From: Clostridia bacterium | GTDB taxonomy: Bacteria > Bacillota > DSM-521 > Neomoorellales > SLTJ01 | NCBI GenBank assembly: GCA_004347685.1 | Contig: SLTJ01000033.1 | Span: forward strand, 1-64,000 | Direction of reading: 5' to 3' | DNA: 64,000 bases | Shown: piece by piece, positions 44,567 through 52,196 of the stretch | Layout of the letters: the number at the start of each line of letters is the position of its first letter | Position numbering within the stretch: position 1 is the first letter of the stretch | Made by a program: the position numbers and the translations under genes | Notes under the pieces: model-generated | Database searches by the model: none | Told to the model about the DNA's origin: nothing | What the model saw: the letters and a program-made list of their open reading frames with translations, nothing else

Positions 44567-44690
44567 CCCTGAAATTAGAGGTTGGAGGTTAGAACTTGTT
44601 GCAAGTGGCTGCGCCCCTTTCAAATCTGCGGCCTCTTGCCTCGCCGTCAATTTCATTCTTTCTGTTGGTGACGCCTGAGGCGGCATGGCG
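44567..44690 (-). repeat. Dispersed heptad repeat, copy 3 (inverted)
   Basis: On the minus strand the sequence runs GGCGTCACCAACAGAAAGAA, GACGGCGAGG, GGGGCGCAGCC, the palindrome ACTTG-TTG-CAAGT, TCTAACCTCCAACCTC and TAATTTCAGGG. This is the same order as the other copies. It lies in the 304-bp spacer after purD, which holds no gene. Confidence 0.7.
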
Positions 44691-44820
44691 GTCCGCCCTG
44701 GATTCCTCGCCGCAGCTCGTTCCTTCTGCCTGACGAGCCCTTATCCCGGCCTCCAGTCAGTGGTACTATGGCCAAAACCCGGCCTCACCCGGCAGGAGAG
44801 CCTTGAGGAGGCCATTTACG

Positions 44821-45165
44821 TTGGCTCTGGCCACGCGACTCACCCTGTTCCGCCTGGCCGTGGCCCCCGTCTTCCTGGTCGTCTTTTTCTCCGGCCTGCC
44901 CGGCCGTACTATCTGGGCCGCCATGGTCTTCGCCCTGGCCATGGCCACCGATGCGTTAGACGGTTACGTGGCCCGGAGACGGCAAGAAGTCACAGCCCTG
45001 GGCCGGTTTCTCGACCCTCTGGCCGACAAGGTTATCCTTTCGCTGGCCGTGGTTTCACTCGCCCTGGCCGGTTTCCTCCCGGCCTGGATCAGCGCTTGCC
45101 TGGTCGGGCGGGAGGTTGTCGTCGCCGCTACCGCTGCTACCGCGCATCGTCGTAGAGTTCTTTGA
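44821..45165 (+). pseudogene. CDP-alcohol phosphatidyltransferase, N-terminal part
   Basis: The 114-codon frame from TTG 44821 (after GAGGAGG) encodes two or three membrane segments and the family signature DALDGYVARRRQEVTALGRF followed by LDPLADK, i.e. DGxxAR...GxxxDxxxD, which binds CDP-diacylglycerol and metal. A full enzyme has about 180-200 residues. Homology ends near 45135, where the sequence meets the 3' end of an opposite-strand glycosyltransferase fragment. It resembles PgsA, but truncation means activity is doubtful. Confidence 0.75.
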
Positions 45166-45568
45166 GCTTTTCCGGCGGGGTGCCCCAGGCGTAGAGAAGC
45201 TTGAGCTTGTGCATGAGAAAGACGGTGCGCCAGGTGCCGTGCCGTTCCCAGCGCCTGGCTGAAGTGGTGATGTGGGACGGCAGGAGCACCATCCGGCCGC
45301 GCCGCTGCAGCGCCCGTCCCAGTTCCCAGTCCTCCATGATAGGAATGGCCGGATACCCGCCTGCCGACCAGAAGGCTTTCCGCCGGCAGAAAATACCCTG
45401 GTCGCCGAAAAAGATCCCCAGAAACCGGGCCCGCGCATTCGAGCCAGCCTCGATCAGGCGAAAGGTCAGTCCGGGCCTGTCAATGCGGAGACGAAAGGCT
45501 CCCCCCACCACTTCCTCCTGATCAAGGGCCTTCTCAATATCTTCCAGGGCCGTCACCGGCGGCCTTGA
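45137..45568 (-). pseudogene. TIGR04283-like glycosyltransferase, C-terminal part
   Basis: The minus-strand frame reads EVVGGAFRLRID, FGDQGIFCRR, YPAIPIMEDWELGRALQRRG and TTSARRWERHGT, typical of the second half of the GT2 proteins found beside radical SAM/selenodomain genes (TIGR04283). The N-terminal nucleotide-binding half is missing. The natural stop lies at 45137. It faces the truncated phosphatidyltransferase and abuts the TVP38-like gene at its 5' end, so breakpoints flank it on both sides. Confidence 0.72.
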
Positions 45569-45581
45569 ATCACTGGTTCCG

Positions 45582-45730
45582 GTGGCCGGGGCGGCTCTGG
45601 CCTGGTTCTTCATCCCGGCGGTACAGGAGGCAGTGGCCCGGGCGGTGGCGGTCCTGGCGGCCGGCGATCTGCAACCGCTGCGGAAGTATCTCCTGGGTTT
45701 CGGCTGGGGGGGCCCCTCGTCTCCACCCTG
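45582..45730 (+). pseudogene. TVP38/TMEM64 gene, 5' part in another frame
   Basis: From about 45570 a frame encodes VAGAALAWFFIPAVQEAVAR then LAAGDLQPLRKYLLGFGWG, the expected first membrane helix and linker of a TVP38/TMEM64 protein. At a run of seven G and four C (45706-45716) the frame shifts by one and joins the downstream coding sequence. Could be a real lesion or a homopolymer sequencing error. Confidence 0.6.
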
Positions 45731-46258
45731 TTGATGGTGCTTCAGGCCCTGGTCCTCCCCCTCCCGGCCTTTATCATCACCTTTACCAACGCTTGGCTTT
45801 ACGGCTGGGCCTGGGGCGCCGCCCTTTCATGGAGCGGGGCCATGCTGGCGGCGCTCCTCTGCTACGGCCTGGCCCGCTGGTTCGGCCGGCCGCTGGTGGA
45901 GAGCCTGGTGGGCGGCCGAAACCTGGCCGCGGCCGATGCTTTTTTCACCCGCTACGGCGCCCAGGCGGTGCTCATTACCAGGCTGATCCCGGTAATTTCC
46001 TTTGACCTGGTCAGCTATGCCGCCGGCCTCACCTCGGTAGGCCTGTGGACTTTTTTCTGGGCCACCGGCCTGGGCCAGTTGCCCGCCACCCTGGTATACT
46101 CCTACGTGGGCCAGAGCCTGGGCCAGGGGGCGCAGGTTTTCCTCTGGGGGCTCTCCCTGGCCTTCGTGTTCGTTACTGCCGGCTGGGGCCTGCGCTCCTG
46201 GCTGCAGTCCCGCCGGGTGTCGGTGGATCCCGCTCCGGGGGAGGAAGGGCGTGGTTGA
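45731..46258 (+). CDS. TVP38/TMEM64 family membrane protein
   Basis: The 175-codon frame holds the VTT (SNARE-associated) domain: LPLPAFIITFTNAWLYGWAW, YGLARWFGRPLVESLVGG, TRYGAQAVLITRLIPVISFD, and SYAAGLTSVGLWTFF. Such proteins are inner-membrane and are linked to lipid scrambling or transport. Its first helix lies in a different frame upstream, so the gene is frameshifted unless the sequence is wrong. A TTG at 45731 could start a shortened form. The stop overlaps the next gene (TGATG). Confidence 0.8.
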   Translation: MMVLQALVLPLPAFIITFTNAWLYGWAWGAALSWSGAMLAALLCYGLARWFGRPLVESLVGGRNLAAADAFFTRYGAQAVLITRLIPVISFDLVSYAAGLTSVGLWTFFWATGLGQLPATLVYSYVGQSLGQGAQVFLWGLSLAFVFVTAGWGLRSWLQSRRVSVDPAPGEEGRG

Positions 46259-47232
46259 TGGATCCCGGGCAAGTGATCAGGCCCTTACCGGAGGGGACTG
46301 AGCCGGTCCGGGCGCGCGCTGGGAGGCCGGCCTCCTGGCGCCTGGCTGTCGCTGCCGTTCTCCTGTGGCTGCTGTTCCGGCAGGTACCGTGGGGTCAGTT
46401 CTGGCTGGCCTGGCGGGACCTGTCGCTCCCAGCAGTGCTTGCCTCCTCCGGCCTGACCATTCTTTCCATGGTGGTCAGCGCCTGGAAGTGGCGGCTGGTT
46501 CTCGAGGAACCGGGCCTGGCTACTCCCGGCACGGCTAGGCTTTTCCGCCTGTACCTGGTCGGCCTCTTTTTTAACAACTTCCTGCCCTCCGGCATGGGAG
46601 GCGATGTGGTGCGGGTGGCCCAGGTGTCCCGCGAAGTCGGCGTGGCCAGGGCCGCCGCCTCGGTGGTGGCCGAAAGGTTACTGGCCGCCGTGGGCCTGGT
46701 GGTGCCCAGCCTGGTCTTTTTCCTGCCGTACCGGCAGCAGCTTGGAGCCCTGTCCGCAGTGGTGCCGCTTCTGGCGGTGGCGGTCGCCGCGCTGGTGGGG
46801 CTTTGTTTCTTTCCCGGGTGGGCGCGGGGTTTGCTGCGGTTTTCCCGCCGCTGGCCCCGGGTGGCAGAAGCGCTTTCCGGCTTTCTGGAGATCCTCGGGC
46901 GTTACCGGGAGAGGCCGCGGCGGCTGGCCGTGGTCATCCTGTGGTCAATTGTTTTTCAGGGGCTGGTAGTTCTCATTAATTTTGTGCTCCTCCGGGGCCT
47001 GGGGGTGCCGGTCAGCCTGGGCGCGTGCATGACTGTCATTCCCCTGACCTCCGCCTTGGCCATGGTACCCTTGAGCATCAACGGCTTGGGCCTGCGCGAA
47101 TGGAGCTACGTTGCCCTGCTGGCCCCCTTCGGTGTGGACGCCGCCACCGCCGTGGCGGCTTCCCTGAGCTTTTTCGTGGTGGTGACCCTGGTGAGCTTGA
47201 TAGGGGGTGCGTGTTATCTCCTGGAGCGATAG
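46258..47232 (+). CDS. Flippase-like (LPG synthase transmembrane) protein
   Basis: This 324-residue, polytopic membrane protein of the UPF0104/lysylphosphatidylglycerol-synthase transmembrane family has about eight helices and the family blocks YLVGLFFNNFLPSGMGGDVV, RAAASVVAERL, PLSINGLGLREWSYVALLAP. Relatives flip or modify lipids; a synthetase domain is absent. ATG 46258 overlaps the stop of the TVP38-like gene, so both are in one operon, and the Fe-S protein gene starts 2 bp after its stop. Confidence 0.85.
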   Translation: MDPGQVIRPLPEGTEPVRARAGRPASWRLAVAAVLLWLLFRQVPWGQFWLAWRDLSLPAVLASSGLTILSMVVSAWKWRLVLEEPGLATPGTARLFRLYLVGLFFNNFLPSGMGGDVVRVAQVSREVGVARAAASVVAERLLAAVGLVVPSLVFFLPYRQQLGALSAVVPLLAVAVAALVGLCFFPGWARGLLRFSRRWPRVAEALSGFLEILGRYRERPRRLAVVILWSIVFQGLVVLINFVLLRGLGVPVSLGACMTVIPLTSALAMVPLSINGLGLREWSYVALLAPFGVDAATAVAASLSFFVVVTLVSLIGGACYLLER

Positions 47233-47233
47233 G

Positions 47234-48856
47234 GTGCGAGTTACTGCCACCTGGCTGGCCCCGGGCTTCAGCCTGGGCCTGGCGGCCATGCTGGCCGCCA
47301 GCCGCTGGACTTGGCTGGAGATGCGCTGGAATACAGGTCAGCTCTGGTGGGCCACCCTCCTCATTTTCCTCCTGGTCGGCCTTGCTGGCGGGAAACCCCT
47401 GGGGCCGGCCTGGCTGCTGGGAGCCGACCTCTTGCTGGCTCTCCTGACTGCAGCCGGGTCCGGGGAAGGGCCGGGGATACTGCTGGCCGCCCTTTTCCGT
47501 GAAGGCCTGGGCTGGACCGGCCTGAGCCTGGAGGTGGCTGGTGGGGTTATCGCAGCCGGCTTACTGGCCAGCCACCTCATATATGTGTTGCTCCGGCTAC
47601 CCGCGCCGGGCGGGGGAAATCCCCAGCTGCCGGGAGCGGGGCCCAGGCAGGATGCCCATCCGGCCCATAGCAGCCGGGAGGCGCTGGGGCGGCTGGTCGG
47701 GCAGCACCTGGAGAGCTGCGATTTGTGTGGCCGGTGCCTGCGTGCCTGTCCCCTGCCGCCGGGCCGCAAGGTACCCATGCGGGAACTGGCGGGCCACCTA
47801 CTACAGCCGGGCCCGTCCGCCGGGCGGCTGACAACTTTTGTTCTGGATTGTACCGCCTGTGGCCGGTGCGCCCAGGCCTGCCCCCGGGGACTGCGGCCGG
47901 ACTTGATGCTGCGGTGGGAAAAGGCCAAGTACCCTCGTATGCCCTACCGGGGGTTCATGCGGGTACGGGGCCCCAACCTGGCCCTGTGGGAACGGGTGGC
48001 CGTGGCGGTGCATAATCGCTCCCGGCGACCAAGCCTGGGCCGGCTGGCCCGCTATATTGATAACGGCCCGGGTCCGGCCCCTATCCTTTTCTATTTTGCC
48101 TGCTACCTCTTTTCGCCCACCGGCGTGGCGGCCGATACCCTGTGGCTGGCCGACCGCCTGGGGCTGACGTATAGCGTGCTGGGCGGCCTGCGGCATTGTT
48201 GCGGTTATGTTCACCGTCTGGCAGGCCAGCTCGAAGCCGCCGACGCTCTCTATGCCAGCCTGGGGGAGACCCTGGCCCGCCTGAGACCTGAAACCATTGT
48301 GACCGGCTGCGCCGAATGTTACAGGGGGTTGCAGGAAATCGCGCTCCTGTGGGGAATACCTGGCAAGGTGGTGAGCGCCGAGGACTTTGTCCTGGAGCAC
48401 TGGTTGGAACTGGGATTACCGTCCAGGCTCCCGGGGAAATGGGCCTACCACCGTTGCTGCCAGGCCGGACCTGACCCTTTACCGCCCGTGGCCGGTGAGG
48501 GATACGGATTGTTTCCCGCCGCTGCCGGAGGAGGGGCAGTGGCCGGGGTCGCCGCCCGGCCGGGCCGGCCATCCCTAGAGGAGGTGGCCGACCTTGTTCC
48601 TACCCCGGGTCACTGCTGCGGCATGGCGGCGGCAGAGCGCGACCGGCAGCACACGGTCCGGGTCCGGCGGGCCGAGGTGGCGGCGGCGCGGGAACTGGCC
48701 GGGGGAAAGCTGCTGGTGGATTGCGTTTCCTGCCGGGAAAAACTGCTCCCGCCCGGGAGGCGGGCCGGGGTGGAGGTCACTGACCTGGCTTCCTTGGCGG
48801 CCGCCTACCTGCGGACGATCACGGTCTCGAGCGGACCGTGCGGCTGTCAGGGCTAA
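47234..48856 (+). CDS. Membrane 4Fe-4S/CCG-domain oxidoreductase (HdrD-like)
   Basis: This 540-residue protein has about four N-terminal membrane helices (to residue 125), two 4Fe-4S ferredoxin motifs CDLCGRCLRACP and CTACGRCAQACP (about 158-215), and two Cys-rich CCG-type regions (LRHCCGYVHRL with CAECY, and GHCCGMAAA with CVSCREK). The C-terminus ends SSGPCGCQG. The layout resembles heterodisulfide-reductase D/GlpC-type electron carriers fixed to the membrane. It may pass electrons from quinones or thiols to the neighbouring ArsM/radical SAM protein; this is inference. GTG 47234 follows the previous stop by 1 bp; GTG 47207 is an alternative. Confidence 0.8.
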   Translation: MRVTATWLAPGFSLGLAAMLAASRWTWLEMRWNTGQLWWATLLIFLLVGLAGGKPLGPAWLLGADLLLALLTAAGSGEGPGILLAALFREGLGWTGLSLEVAGGVIAAGLLASHLIYVLLRLPAPGGGNPQLPGAGPRQDAHPAHSSREALGRLVGQHLESCDLCGRCLRACPLPPGRKVPMRELAGHLLQPGPSAGRLTTFVLDCTACGRCAQACPRGLRPDLMLRWEKAKYPRMPYRGFMRVRGPNLALWERVAVAVHNRSRRPSLGRLARYIDNGPGPAPILFYFACYLFSPTGVAADTLWLADRLGLTYSVLGGLRHCCGYVHRLAGQLEAADALYASLGETLARLRPETIVTGCAECYRGLQEIALLWGIPGKVVSAEDFVLEHWLELGLPSRLPGKWAYHRCCQAGPDPLPPVAGEGYGLFPAAAGGGAVAGVAARPGRPSLEEVADLVPTPGHCCGMAAAERDRQHTVRVRRAEVAAARELAGGKLLVDCVSCREKLLPPGRRAGVEVTDLASLAAAYLRTITVSSGPCGCQG

Positions 48857-48908
48857 TAGAGTAGTGGCGAGAGGCGATTTGTCGGGGTTGTGAAGGAGGC
48901 AATTAATT

Positions 48909-51266
48909 TTGAAGGAAGCTGTGCGCCGGGTATACCGGGAGGCCCTGACCCGCGCCGAAGCCGCGGGGGCCGGCAGCCCGGGTGGCGGGGGATCGCTGGC
49001 CGGAGGTGATGCCCCTGGCCCCTTGCCTGATAGCAGTTGCTGTACTACAGATCTCGGCCCCTACGCGGAAGTCCTGGCCCGCCTACCCCAGGAGGCCAGG
49101 AATATGACCTTTGGCTGCGGCAATCCCCTGGCCGTAGCCCGCCTGGAGCCGGGCGAGACGGTGGTGGACGTGGGCTGCGGCGCCGGCCTGGACTTGATTC
49201 TGGCTGCCCTCCGGATCGGGCCGGGGGGCCGGGTTATTGGCGTGGACTTCACCCCGGAGATGCTGGAGCGGGCCGCCAAGAACGCCGCGGCCGCCGGGGT
49301 GACGAACGTGCTTTTCCTGGAGGGTGAGGCGGAAAGGCTCCCCCTGGAAGACGCCGTGGCCGACACCGTGATCAGCAACTGTGTTCTCAACCTGGTGGCT
49401 GACAAGGCAGCCGCCTTCCGCGAAATCGCCCGCTGCCTGAAACCAGGCGGGAGAATAATCGTTTCCGACATTGTGGCTGCAGCAGAACTGCCGCCCGAGA
49501 TCCGTACGGACCCTGAACTTTGGGCCTCGTGCATCGGCGGGGCCATCCCCGAAGCGGAATACCTGCGTCTCTGGCACGAAGCCGGCCTTCGCGGCCTGAC
49601 CGTCCTCAAACGCAGCGCCGTTGACACCCGGGGTGTCCGCCTGTTCAGTATTACCCTGGAAGGCATTAGGGTGGGAGAGGGGGACAGCGCCGGTGGCGAC
49701 CCGGCTGCAGCCGGGCATACTGCTGCGAGGCCGGTGCTCCCTGTACTTCTGGACGTGGGCCACGGGCTGACCGCCCTTTTCAACCCGGCCTACCCGGCGT
49801 GGGCCCTGACAGATGCGGTTGGCCGGAGGTTAGCCGGGGAGCCGGGAGACGAACACGCGCCGGCCAAGGCCGGTCCTCCCCCACCACCGGGCCCGGAAAA
49901 TGAGGTGCACCTGCGGCCGCAGGCCGCGGATTTCCTGGCTGGCCTGCAAGTGCGGCAACTGCTGTTCCCCGGCCCGGACTACCAGGGGCGGGACCGGTTC
50001 CTGCAGCCCGGGCCTCTCCGGGAACTCTGGCTGCACGTAACCCAAGACTGCAACCTGCGCTGCCGGCACTGCCTGGTGGAGGCCGGCCAGGGCGCGGAGG
50101 AGGAGCTTTCCCTGGAGGACTGGCTGGCCGTAGCTGCCGAGGCCGTGCAACTGGGGGCGGAAAGGTTTTACCTTACCGGCGGGGAGCCCTTTAGACGCGG
50201 CGATGCCGTGCAGATCATCCGGGAACTGAGTTCGGCCTGCGAGGTGGTGGTTCTCACCAACGGCACCCTGGTCCCGGAGATTGTGGCGGGGTTGCCGGTG
50301 GGGGCGCCCATTACCTTTCAGGTGAGCCTGGAGGGACCACCGGCGGTTCACGAAGCCCTGCGGGGCCAGCACAGCTTTGCCCGGGCCGTGGCCGGGATCC
50401 GGGCCCTGAAGGGAGCCGGGTTCAGGGTGGTGGCGGCAGCCACGCTGATCAGGTTAAACAGGCGGCACCTGGCCGGGCTGGTGGACCTGGTGGCCGGCCT
50501 GGGGCTGGAGGACCTGCACGTTTTGTGGCTACACCGGCGGGGCCGGGCCGCCGGGGCCCTGGCCGACCTGGCCCTTACCCCTGGGGAAGTAGGCGCGGCC
50601 ATGGCCGAACTCTCCGACCTGGCCCGGAGGGCCGGGCTGACCCTGGACAACGAGGCATCTTTGGCTGCCCGGCTGGCGTCGCCCGCGGGTACCAGGCACG
50701 ACTTGTGCCAGGCCGGCGTGGACTGTCTGGCCGTCGGCCCCCGGGGGACGGTCTATCCGTGTGCTTCCCTGGTGGGAGTGGAAGATTTCGCCTGCGGGTC
50801 CCTCCAGGCCCAAACCCTGGAAGAAATCTGGCGGCAGAGTCCCAGAATTCAGAGCCTGCGTGCCTTGAGCCTGGTGACTGCGCGGGAGTGCCGGGTATGC
50901 GTGTGGCGGTTTTACTGTGGCGGTGGCTGTCCGGCCTATAAGTTCCAGGCCGGTGGCGGCGACTTGGCGGTCCGTGATCCCTACTGCGAGGCCTACCAGG
51001 CCCTGGCCAGGCTGGCCATGGGTAACTTGGCCGCACGGCAGGCCGATGGGGGCGAGCCTGGGCTGCCGGAGCCCGTCACCTGGGCCGGGACCGCACCGGC
51101 CTCCCCGCCGGGTCCGGCCGGGTTCAGGCTTTTTGGTGGCAGCCAGCCCGGTGCGGGCGAAACGGTCCAGACCTACCGCTGCGCCTGCGTGCTTTCCAGC
51201 GGGAACCATAACCGTCTAGGCCAGCCCGGGGCTTGCGGCCCAAGGGCGAGTAGCTGCTGCAGTTAG
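48909..51266 (+). CDS. ArsM-type methyltransferase fused to radical SAM/SPASM protein
   Basis: This 785-residue protein has several parts. Residues 1-255 are an arsenite methyltransferase-like domain: Cys44-Cys45, FGCGNP (Cys70), the SAM site VVDVGCGAGLDL, ISNCVLNL (Cys158) and ASCIGGA (Cys208), the cysteines that bind As(III) in ArsM. Residues 270-315 could be a PqqD/RRE-like module. Residues 370-600 are a radical SAM domain with CNLRCRHC (381-388) and YLTGGEP. A SPASM region follows (CRVCVWRFYCGGGC, 661-674), then a 90-residue tail ending with Cys758, 760, 776, 783 and 784. TTG 48909 is 10 nt after AAGGAGGC. It probably modifies a methylated or thiol-bound arsenical, or a peptide. No equivalent fusion is known to me. 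Confidence 0.85.
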   Translation: MKEAVRRVYREALTRAEAAGAGSPGGGGSLAGGDAPGPLPDSSCCTTDLGPYAEVLARLPQEARNMTFGCGNPLAVARLEPGETVVDVGCGAGLDLILAALRIGPGGRVIGVDFTPEMLERAAKNAAAAGVTNVLFLEGEAERLPLEDAVADTVISNCVLNLVADKAAAFREIARCLKPGGRIIVSDIVAAAELPPEIRTDPELWASCIGGAIPEAEYLRLWHEAGLRGLTVLKRSAVDTRGVRLFSITLEGIRVGEGDSAGGDPAAAGHTAARPVLPVLLDVGHGLTALFNPAYPAWALTDAVGRRLAGEPGDEHAPAKAGPPPPPGPENEVHLRPQAADFLAGLQVRQLLFPGPDYQGRDRFLQPGPLRELWLHVTQDCNLRCRHCLVEAGQGAEEELSLEDWLAVAAEAVQLGAERFYLTGGEPFRRGDAVQIIRELSSACEVVVLTNGTLVPEIVAGLPVGAPITFQVSLEGPPAVHEALRGQHSFARAVAGIRALKGAGFRVVAAATLIRLNRRHLAGLVDLVAGLGLEDLHVLWLHRRGRAAGALADLALTPGEVGAAMAELSDLARRAGLTLDNEASLAARLASPAGTRHDLCQAGVDCLAVGPRGTVYPCASLVGVEDFACGSLQAQTLEEIWRQSPRIQSLRALSLVTARECRVCVWRFYCGGGCPAYKFQAGGGDLAVRDPYCEAYQALARLAMGNLAARQADGGEPGLPEPVTWAGTAPASPPGPAGFRLFGGSQPGAGETVQTYRCACVLSSGNHNRLGQPGACGPRASSCCS

Positions 51267-51270
51267 GAAT

Positions 51271-51702
51271 CTTACAGCACAGGAACCGTCGTTTAGGACC
51301 AGAGAATTGCTGCTGACTATTAAGGATGATAAGATGCGGGCTGATGCCCTTTCGGTAGCCGTCACCATAGCTGGAAGGTATTTCCCCCGGGAGTTCCTGC
51401 TAAAATTCTTCGAGGAGGAGTTGAGTATGTTGCAGGGAGCCAGCATTGTTCAGGACTGGATTAACGAGGGTATGGAAAAGGGCATGGAAAAGGGCATGGA
51501 AAAGGGTATGGAAAAGGGTAGAATTACGACCATGCGCGAAGATACTCTGGAAGTGCTTAGCGAACGCTTTGGAATGGTCAAGAAGGGCCTCAGCCAGAAG
51601 CTGCTTAGTATTGAGGACCCGGCCATCTTGCGGTTCCTGCATAAAAAAAGTGTGCAGGTGGAAAGCCTGGAGGAGTTTATCAGACTGCTGGAAAATATTT
51701 AA
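51271..51702 (+). pseudogene. Rpn/PD-(D/E)XK transposase family, C-terminal part
   Basis: The frame reads KDDKMRADALSVAVTIAGRY, FPREFLLKFFEEELSML, ASIVQDWINEG and a C-terminal helical region, as in the end of Rpn-type recombination-promoting nucleases. The N-terminal nuclease domain is missing. Four 12-bp units give GMEKGMEKGMEKGMEK (51469-51516). It may be read from a TTG at 51307. It follows the ArsM/radical SAM gene directly, so recombination has occurred here. Confidence 0.65.
51469..51516 (+). repeat. Four tandem 12-bp units encoding GMEK
   Basis: GGTATGGAAAAG or GGCATGGAAAAG occurs four times in a row. Variation in unit number between strains would be expected from slippage. Confidence 0.85.
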
Positions 51703-51799
51703 TACCTTGCCCCGGGATTGGCGTTCCACAGAAAAAGGGCCACGTCCATCTGGGTGCGTGGCTCCCTGGTTATTTGATTAGGCACCCGGCTCTACGAGC

Positions 51800-52196
51800 A
51801 GTATTGGCGGCCGACGGCCGCTTCCACTCCAAGTGGCTGAACATGATGTATCCGAGGCTGTATCTGGCAAGGAATCTGCTACGGGATGATGGGATTATTT
51901 TTGTTAGCATGGACGATAACGAAATAGGTAACCTCAAGAAAGTGTGCGAGGCTATTTTTGGCGAAGAGAATTTCGTTGGGTGCTTTGTCTGGCGGAGACG
52001 AGCCTCCTCTGCATTAGCCGAACGACTTGTCTCAACCGACCACGAATACGTACTCGCGTTTCAGAGACATAGTTTTATCTCCCTTGGAATCCCCAAGGAT
52101 TTTTCCGCCTACTCAAATCCTGATAATGATCCGCGTGGCGATTGGGTGGCTGGCTCCCCGAACACCCGGCCATCCAGCGCGGCGCAATGGTGTTGA
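51800..52196 (+). pseudogene. Fragment of a type III DNA methyltransferase
   Basis: The frame reads GRFHSKWLNMMYPRLYLARN, DDGIIFVSMDDNEIGNLKKV, FGEENFVGCFVWRRRASSAL and STDHEYVLAFQR, the central block of type III Mod proteins. The DPPY motif before it and the SAM site after it are missing. Homology ends near 52150. It is unrelated in position to the mod gene at 22375, though that gene lacks just such a block. Confidence 0.72.

Follow-up and report, generated by a model that had tools for sequence, protein, structure and literature searches.

An ArsM-type methyltransferase and a radical SAM/SPASM enzyme fused in a single chain within a partly broken, arsenosugar-type gene neighbourhood of a Clostridia bacterium

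We describe here an unusual gene in a 64,000-nucleotide stretch of Clostridia bacterium DNA (the window). The gene (P0001) lies at 48909-51266 on the forward strand and, as recognised from its open reading frame, domain searches and composition, encodes a 785-residue protein in which an ArsM-type methyltransferase is joined to a radical SAM/SPASM enzyme. The frame runs from a TTG start to a TAG stop with zero internal stops, an AAGGAGG Shine-Dalgarno sequence (48893-48899) is situated 9 nt 5' of the TTG, and the N-terminus of the protein lines up with the N-termini of ArsM proteins. GC3 along the frame is 0.69-0.89 (0.71-0.83 in the linker between the two enzymes and 0.78 in the C-terminal tail), comparable to the 0.70-0.79 of purD, hisZ, hisD and the upstream Fe-S gene, and there is thus no sign of a non-coding junction. 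Pfam recognises Methyltransf_31 (PF13847, 1e-35), Radical_SAM (PF04055, 1.6e-23, 84 bits) and SPASM (PF13186, 8.8e-9, 36 bits), the latter two over their gathering scores. An AlphaFold model made from an alignment of 21 sequences has two confident domains, at about residues 50-254 and 367-715, whose mutual placement is not fixed by the model (pTM 0.51), together with a disordered linker (256-363, pLDDT < 50) and a disordered tail (716-785, pLDDT ~30). The original prediction of one protein composed of ArsM, a radical SAM/SPASM enzyme and a Cys-rich tail is therefore borne out by the uninterrupted frame, the Pfam and NCBIfam domains and the even composition, and 48909-51266 is a genuine single-chain fusion gene. 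The cysteines to which that prediction had pointed (44, 45, 70, 158 and 208, CNLRCRHC at 381-388, the SPASM set, and five in the tail) are all present.

The methyltransferase domain occupies residues 1-254 (48909-49670, +), and its assignment draws on the NCBIfam arsenite methyltransferase family NF008823, which is the best NCBIfam match of the fusion protein (245-249 bits), on PDB fold matches and on a tree. In a phmmer alignment to CmArsM (4kw7, chain positions 72, 174 and 224), Cys70 (49116-49118, +), Cys158 (49380-49382, +) and Cys208 (49530-49532, +) fall exactly on the As(III) ligands Cys72, Cys174 and Cys224, and alignments place the Cys44-Cys45 pair (49038-49043, +) at about the position of CmArsM Cys44. 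In the alignment and tree the ligand cysteines are retained in ArsM relatives and missing from non-ArsM outgroups. ArsM proteins have been defined by at least three of four cysteines equivalent to CmArsM 44, 72, 174 and 224 (PMC5552862), a definition that takes in the fusion domain. ArsM and AS3MT entries account for all of the top 13 PDB structure matches, and the nearest relative among the sequences compared is the ArsM of the same genome's ars operon, at 47% identity. On these grounds the domain sides with ArsM and not with a non-arsenic methyltransferase clade. However, the NF008823 score is below the curated cut-off of 263 bits, and also below the 301-328 bits of genuine ArsMs trimmed to equal length, which marks the domain as a divergent member. 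The earlier description of a complete ArsM-type domain therefore stands as to ligands and fold, by which we class the domain as ArsM-type, although not as to the curated score.

The source genome also has a bona fide arsM operon, and a second, frame-disrupted copy of its arsM (L031, 17547-18125) lies about 7.6 kb from the intact one. Elsewhere in this genome (L032 on contig C27, 5700-10865) a SelD gene is followed by genes for a radical SAM/SPASM protein, a thioredoxin-thioredoxin reductase fusion and an ArsM-like methyltransferase; the SelD frame has an in-frame stop within the motif CSAG*AAKVGPG, likely selenocysteine. This set is a second association of ArsM-like and SPASM proteins in the genome, in unfused form.

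The C-terminal half begins with a radical SAM domain (residues 377-527; 50037-50489, +), in which CNLRCRHC (50049-50072) is a canonical CX3CX2C motif, and continues into a SPASM domain (residues 600-693; 50706-50987, +) of the pattern CX12GX4C ... CX2CX5CX3C ... C, with its seven cysteines complete (600, 618, 661, 664, 670, 674 and 693), in agreement with the prediction of a radical SAM/SPASM enzyme in the same frame. Many radical SAM/SPASM families of NCBIfam match this half of the protein with similar moderate scores and none near cut-off, the best PDB matches are PqqE, SuiB, SkfB and anSME, and among genomic relatives it is nearest, at 31-37% identity, to SPASM proteins that have a PqqD-like or other N-terminal extension. 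The loci carrying its closest matches elsewhere (L025-L030) encode unrelated SPASM proteins with N-terminal extensions, of which one has PqqD and none ArsM. The enzyme is not ArsS: with ArsS membership taken as a TIGR04167 score above 300 bits (a true ArsS, at L117, scores 443), TIGR04167 is not reached, no match over cut-off is found in the source genome or its order, and an ML tree places the radical SAM domain outside the ArsS branch. The same tree excludes orthology with a sister family of ArsS found at loci such as L113. Because the domain falls outside the branch formed by ArsS and its sister (98/95 support for the split), it is a counterpart of these enzymes by gene position and a member of neither family.

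The linker (residues 255-366; 49671-50006, +) is mostly unstructured and has no Pfam match, including to PqqD or an RRE. By eye a PqqD/RRE domain appeared plausible there, but the linker scored no better than shuffles against an HMM built on the N-terminal domains of the relatives. The disordered tail (residues 716-785; 51054-51263, +) contains five cysteines (C758, C760, C776, C783 and C784) and ends in SSCCS. Of 75 ORFs at three ars/ArsM loci, 5 have a CC within their last ten residues, whereas the figure for ORFs elsewhere is 1 of 696 (p = 4e-5), and one CC-tailed ORF, in the source genome's own ars operon, ends SSCCSCCS. Proteins ending in Cys-Cys-COOH have been tied to metal resistance (PMC13188914). 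Given the enrichment of CC tails at ars loci, binding of a metal or metalloid is a likelier role for the tail than that of a RiPP core. The earlier suggestion that the tail is a tethered peptide substrate accordingly finds no support, all the more as visual inspection of the window ORFs of at least 90 aa showed no RiPP precursor, protease or exporter.

The fusion gene is preceded, at a distance of 52 nt, by a gene whose product joins a membrane domain to a dicluster Fe-S/CCG protein (47207-48856, +; PF13237 and PF02754); the N-terminal 115 aa of this product are 52% identical to a stand-alone small membrane protein at a TIGR04283 locus of another genome of the order, G015. Further upstream are genes for a flippase-like UPF0104 protein (46258-47232, +), identified by a TIGR00374 family match and 31-42% identity to UPF0104 genes of TIGR04283/VTT loci, and for a VTT (TVP38/TMEM64) protein (45570-46258, +; PF09335) that is 44-68% identical to the VTTs of TIGR04283-type loci and has its frame broken at a G-run near 45715-45722. 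These three genes and the fusion gene apparently form one operon. On the opposite strand lies a C-terminal fragment of a TIGR04283 'arsenosugar biosynthesis' glycosyltransferase (45137-45613, -; 2.5e-43) spanning model positions 81-221, with the N-terminal 80 absent, and abutting it is a 3'-truncated fragment of a PgsA-like CDP-alcohol phosphatidyltransferase (44803-45165, +; TIGR00560, 84 bits, positions 3-108 of 183). The fusion locus thus has representatives of TIGR04283 (truncated), VTT (frame-shifted), UPF0104 and the membrane protein, and no copy of TIGR04282 was seen near the fusion gene. As the TIGR04283, PgsA and VTT genes are broken, the source strain may have lost part of the pathway or be losing it, and the locus as a whole may be decaying. 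We also note that the PgsA fragment, the TIGR04283 fragment and the start of the VTT gene abut one another within 44685-45740, as in a recombination scar, and that directly 3' of the fusion gene there are remnants resembling the C-terminus of a transposase or nuclease, with EKGM repeats (51307-51702), and a DNA methylase (51774-52196).

TIGR04283 is present in two of the 22 genomes of the order, the source genome and G015; in the latter, the small membrane protein is encoded between UPF0104 and TIGR04283-TIGR04282, with a BioB-like radical SAM enzyme and a VTT protein. For comparison we used another 25 TIGR04283 loci of the phylum and nine loci with VTT only, at which VTT, UPF0104, C_GCAxxG_C_C, Fe-S/CCG, TIGR04283 and TIGR04282 genes are common in varying sets. 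VTT, UPF0104, C_GCAxxG_C_C, the membrane protein and Fe-S/CCG recur both at ArsS loci and at those with alternative radical SAM genes, and the radical SAM genes recognised at the comparison loci encode ArsS, a BioB-like enzyme, or the ArsS sister of about 290 residues. The order at L113 is VTT, UPF0104, C_GCAxxG, membrane protein and radical SAM, and that in the window is VTT, UPF0104, membrane-Fe-S and ArsM-radical SAM, the only differences being the two fusions and the presence of C_GCAxxG at L113. There being no true ArsS in the order, the fusion is the only radical SAM protein at the source locus, and as judged from gene order it takes the place of the radical SAM gene. The VTT subfamily and TIGR04283 are each found in 27 of 398 sampled phylum genomes and co-occur in 18 (hypergeometric p ~3e-18, or ~3e-17 without the source genome); in the other nine VTT-subfamily genomes nothing matches TIGR04283 at the threshold applied, and the majority of their loci are without ArsS, its sister or the BioB-like enzyme. 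The 'arsenosugar' label of TIGR04282 and TIGR04283 is itself an annotation by association that rests on co-occurrence.

A BioB-like radical SAM gene replaces ArsS in TIGR04283/TIGR04282 clusters at L039 (11956-12885), L115 (12213-13253), L119 (10907-11923) and L121 (11104-12102); these proteins are 59-70% identical to the L039 copy, have weak bioB scores and apparently constitute an unnamed family. The ArsS sister family occurs in VTT/UPF0104/glycosyltransferase clusters at L113 (4687-5556), L120 (4703-5590), L123 (11095-11967) and L109 (8654-9522, split by a frame shift), and no NCBIfam family reaches cut-off with it. At L151, L152, L154 and L156, the VTT gene has genes for an ABC transporter and for a CDP-alcohol phosphatidyltransferase as neighbours, and some of these loci also have UPF0104, C_GCAxxG or the membrane protein. 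This arrangement suggests a lipid-linked pathway, and is reminiscent of E. coli ydjXYZ-ynjABCDEF. The literature search returned no work linking TVP38 with radical SAM enzymes and arsenic.

The fusion itself appears to be rare within the phylum as sampled. Orthologues were found in none of 22 genomes of the order and class, the 398 sampled phylum genomes, the plasmid collection or the viral contigs, a pattern scan of genome contigs returned two remote methyltransferases and no fusion, and a wider search of 10 genomes in the class of G178 gave no match. With no second genome among those searched carrying the fusion there is no sign of selection on it. We also found no description of an ArsM-SPASM fusion in the literature searched, consistent with the original view that it is undescribed.

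The presence of the fusion gene among arsenosugar/arsenolipid-type genes suggests that it may perform two steps in the synthesis of an organic arsenic compound. There are precedents for ArsM and a radical SAM enzyme acting in sequence on arsenic, in ArsM/ArsS and in ArsL/ArsM (PMC8552651, PMC12159101). We consider that there is about an even chance that the protein is a single-chain enzyme of organoarsenical metabolism that methylates arsenic and then forms a C-As bond by radical chemistry. The gene is intact, and from its domain make-up, ligand cysteines and neighbourhood, all directly observed, we infer the following steps and type of product. As(III) would be bound by the N-terminal domain through Cys70, Cys158 and Cys208 (and the 44-45 pair) and methylated with SAM, and the trivalent methylarsenical would be passed, with little release, to the radical SAM/SPASM domain, where a group taken from SAM, in the simplest case 5'-deoxyadenosyl as with ArsS, would be added in a further C-As bond. 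The flexible Cys-rich tail could bind or shuttle trivalent arsenic, the upstream membrane/Fe-S protein could donate electrons or serve the same pathway, and the VTT and flippase proteins, originally together with TIGR04283 and the CDP-alcohol transferase, might deal with a product linked to the membrane, for instance an arsenosugar or arsenolipid. Hand-over of an arsenical between the two sites had been proposed from the fusion alone and is strengthened by the arsenosugar-type neighbourhood, although the chemistry itself is putative. A more specific version, in which the protein is a self-contained organoarsenical synthase with two active sites, a SPASM-type rather than ArsS radical SAM domain, and a Cys tail that swings trivalent arsenic between them, we put forward tentatively, as a possibility that is more doubtful than not.

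Several points weigh against the organoarsenical reading. The radical SAM half falls outside ArsS and its sister family and finds its best structural and sequence relatives among SPASM enzymes whose substrates are peptides or PQQ or haem precursors, the ArsM domain scores below the curated cut-off even when its length is allowed for, the TIGR04283, PgsA and VTT neighbours are broken, no second genome with the fusion was found, and the 'arsenosugar' label is one of association. The protein could instead be a RiPP-type SPASM maturase of a peptide or protein, with an added methyltransferase domain and with the tail as a tethered or self substrate, and its similarity to PqqE, SuiB, SkfB and anSME, the PqqD-like or extended nature of its genomic relatives, and the five tail cysteines are in keeping with this. 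We regard it as unlikely, since the linker lacks a PqqD/RRE match and is scored no better than shuffles by the relatives' HMM, inspection of the window ORFs of at least 90 aa brought up no precursor, protease or RiPP exporter, and the conserved arsenic ligands and arsenosugar-type neighbours would be left unexplained. The same two-step logic might alternatively be applied to another metalloid or a small thiol or selenol compound (e.g. Se, Sb or Te), as could be suggested by the set on C27 with its likely selenocysteine-containing SelD and by the several selenoprotein fusions that contain ArsM-like domains (PMC13188914). This we think distinctly unlikely given the three intact core arsenic ligands, the arsM operon in the same genome and the association of the glycosyltransferase companions with ArsS elsewhere.

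The state of the locus raises different questions. PgsA and TIGR04283 are truncated at a shared junction, the VTT gene is frame-shifted, nuclease-type and DNA-methylase-like fragments lie downstream, and no homologous fusion has been found, all of which would fit a gene that formed recently in a decaying, recombination-prone locus and is now non-functional. This is improbable, however, for a gene with 785 open codons, a good Shine-Dalgarno sequence and start, coding-like composition throughout, every catalytic and cluster cysteine retained, and an intact Fe-S gene immediately upstream. That the fusion is an assembly artefact, with two adjacent genes joined by error, we consider extremely improbable; it is seen in a single genome, and the G-run frame shift 3 kb upstream points to indel errors or mutations in the same contig, but neither frame nor composition is broken, the long linker is in one frame with coding-like GC3, and an indel error would have had to remove a stop and leave more than 100 codons open.

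A two-step organoarsenical enzyme, the reading that we favour, can be compared with several known systems. In arsenosugar biosynthesis in Synechocystis PCC 6803, ArsM, which methylates As(III) with SAM, and ArsS, a canonical CX3CX2C radical SAM enzyme, work on the same arsenic, as we propose for the two halves of the fusion, and ArsS loci have TIGR04283/TIGR04282, VTT and UPF0104 companions, counterparts of which, TIGR04282 excepted, are seen in part broken form beside the fusion gene; these are two proteins, however, with ArsS of another radical SAM subfamily, whereas the fusion is one chain with a full SPASM domain and a Cys tail. ArsL and ArsM of Burkholderia gladioli make two C-As bonds of arsinothricin successively (PMC8552651), as we propose for the fusion, but are encoded by separate genes with the permease ArsQ, ArsL transfers an aminocarboxypropyl group, and no arsenosugar-type companions are described. 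Multidomain proteins containing ArsM are also known, among them the ArsM/AhpD, ArsM/DUF2284 and methyltransferase/UXPK-star selenoproteins (NF041537, NF041536 and NF047649) and ArsM-SelD of Naegleria gruberi (PMC5552862), although none of the partners AhpD, DUF2284, UXPK-star and SelD is a radical SAM enzyme. The ArsS sister of L113, L120 and L123 shares with the fusion the equivalent gene position and a start of the form ELWLHVxxxCNLxCxHCL, but has neither an ArsM domain nor the last SPASM cysteines, and it branches with ArsS, as the fusion does not. PqqE, SkfB, anSME and AhbD have the same radical SAM and SPASM fold and cysteine pattern, but act on peptide, protein or haem-precursor substrates and have no ArsM domain.

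To our knowledge, few enzymes are known that form C-As bonds beyond methylation. Because the fusion joins ArsM to the radical SAM enzyme of a VTT/flippase/TIGR04282-TIGR04283 locus, it offers sequence-based support, independent of ArsS, for the view that this widespread gene set deals with arsenic. If the proposal is correct, SPASM enzymes would join those that act on arsenic, the methylation and C-As bond-forming steps would be physically coupled in a natural ArsM-radical SAM fusion, and a single protein would be at hand in which to study the transfer of a toxic trivalent arsenical.
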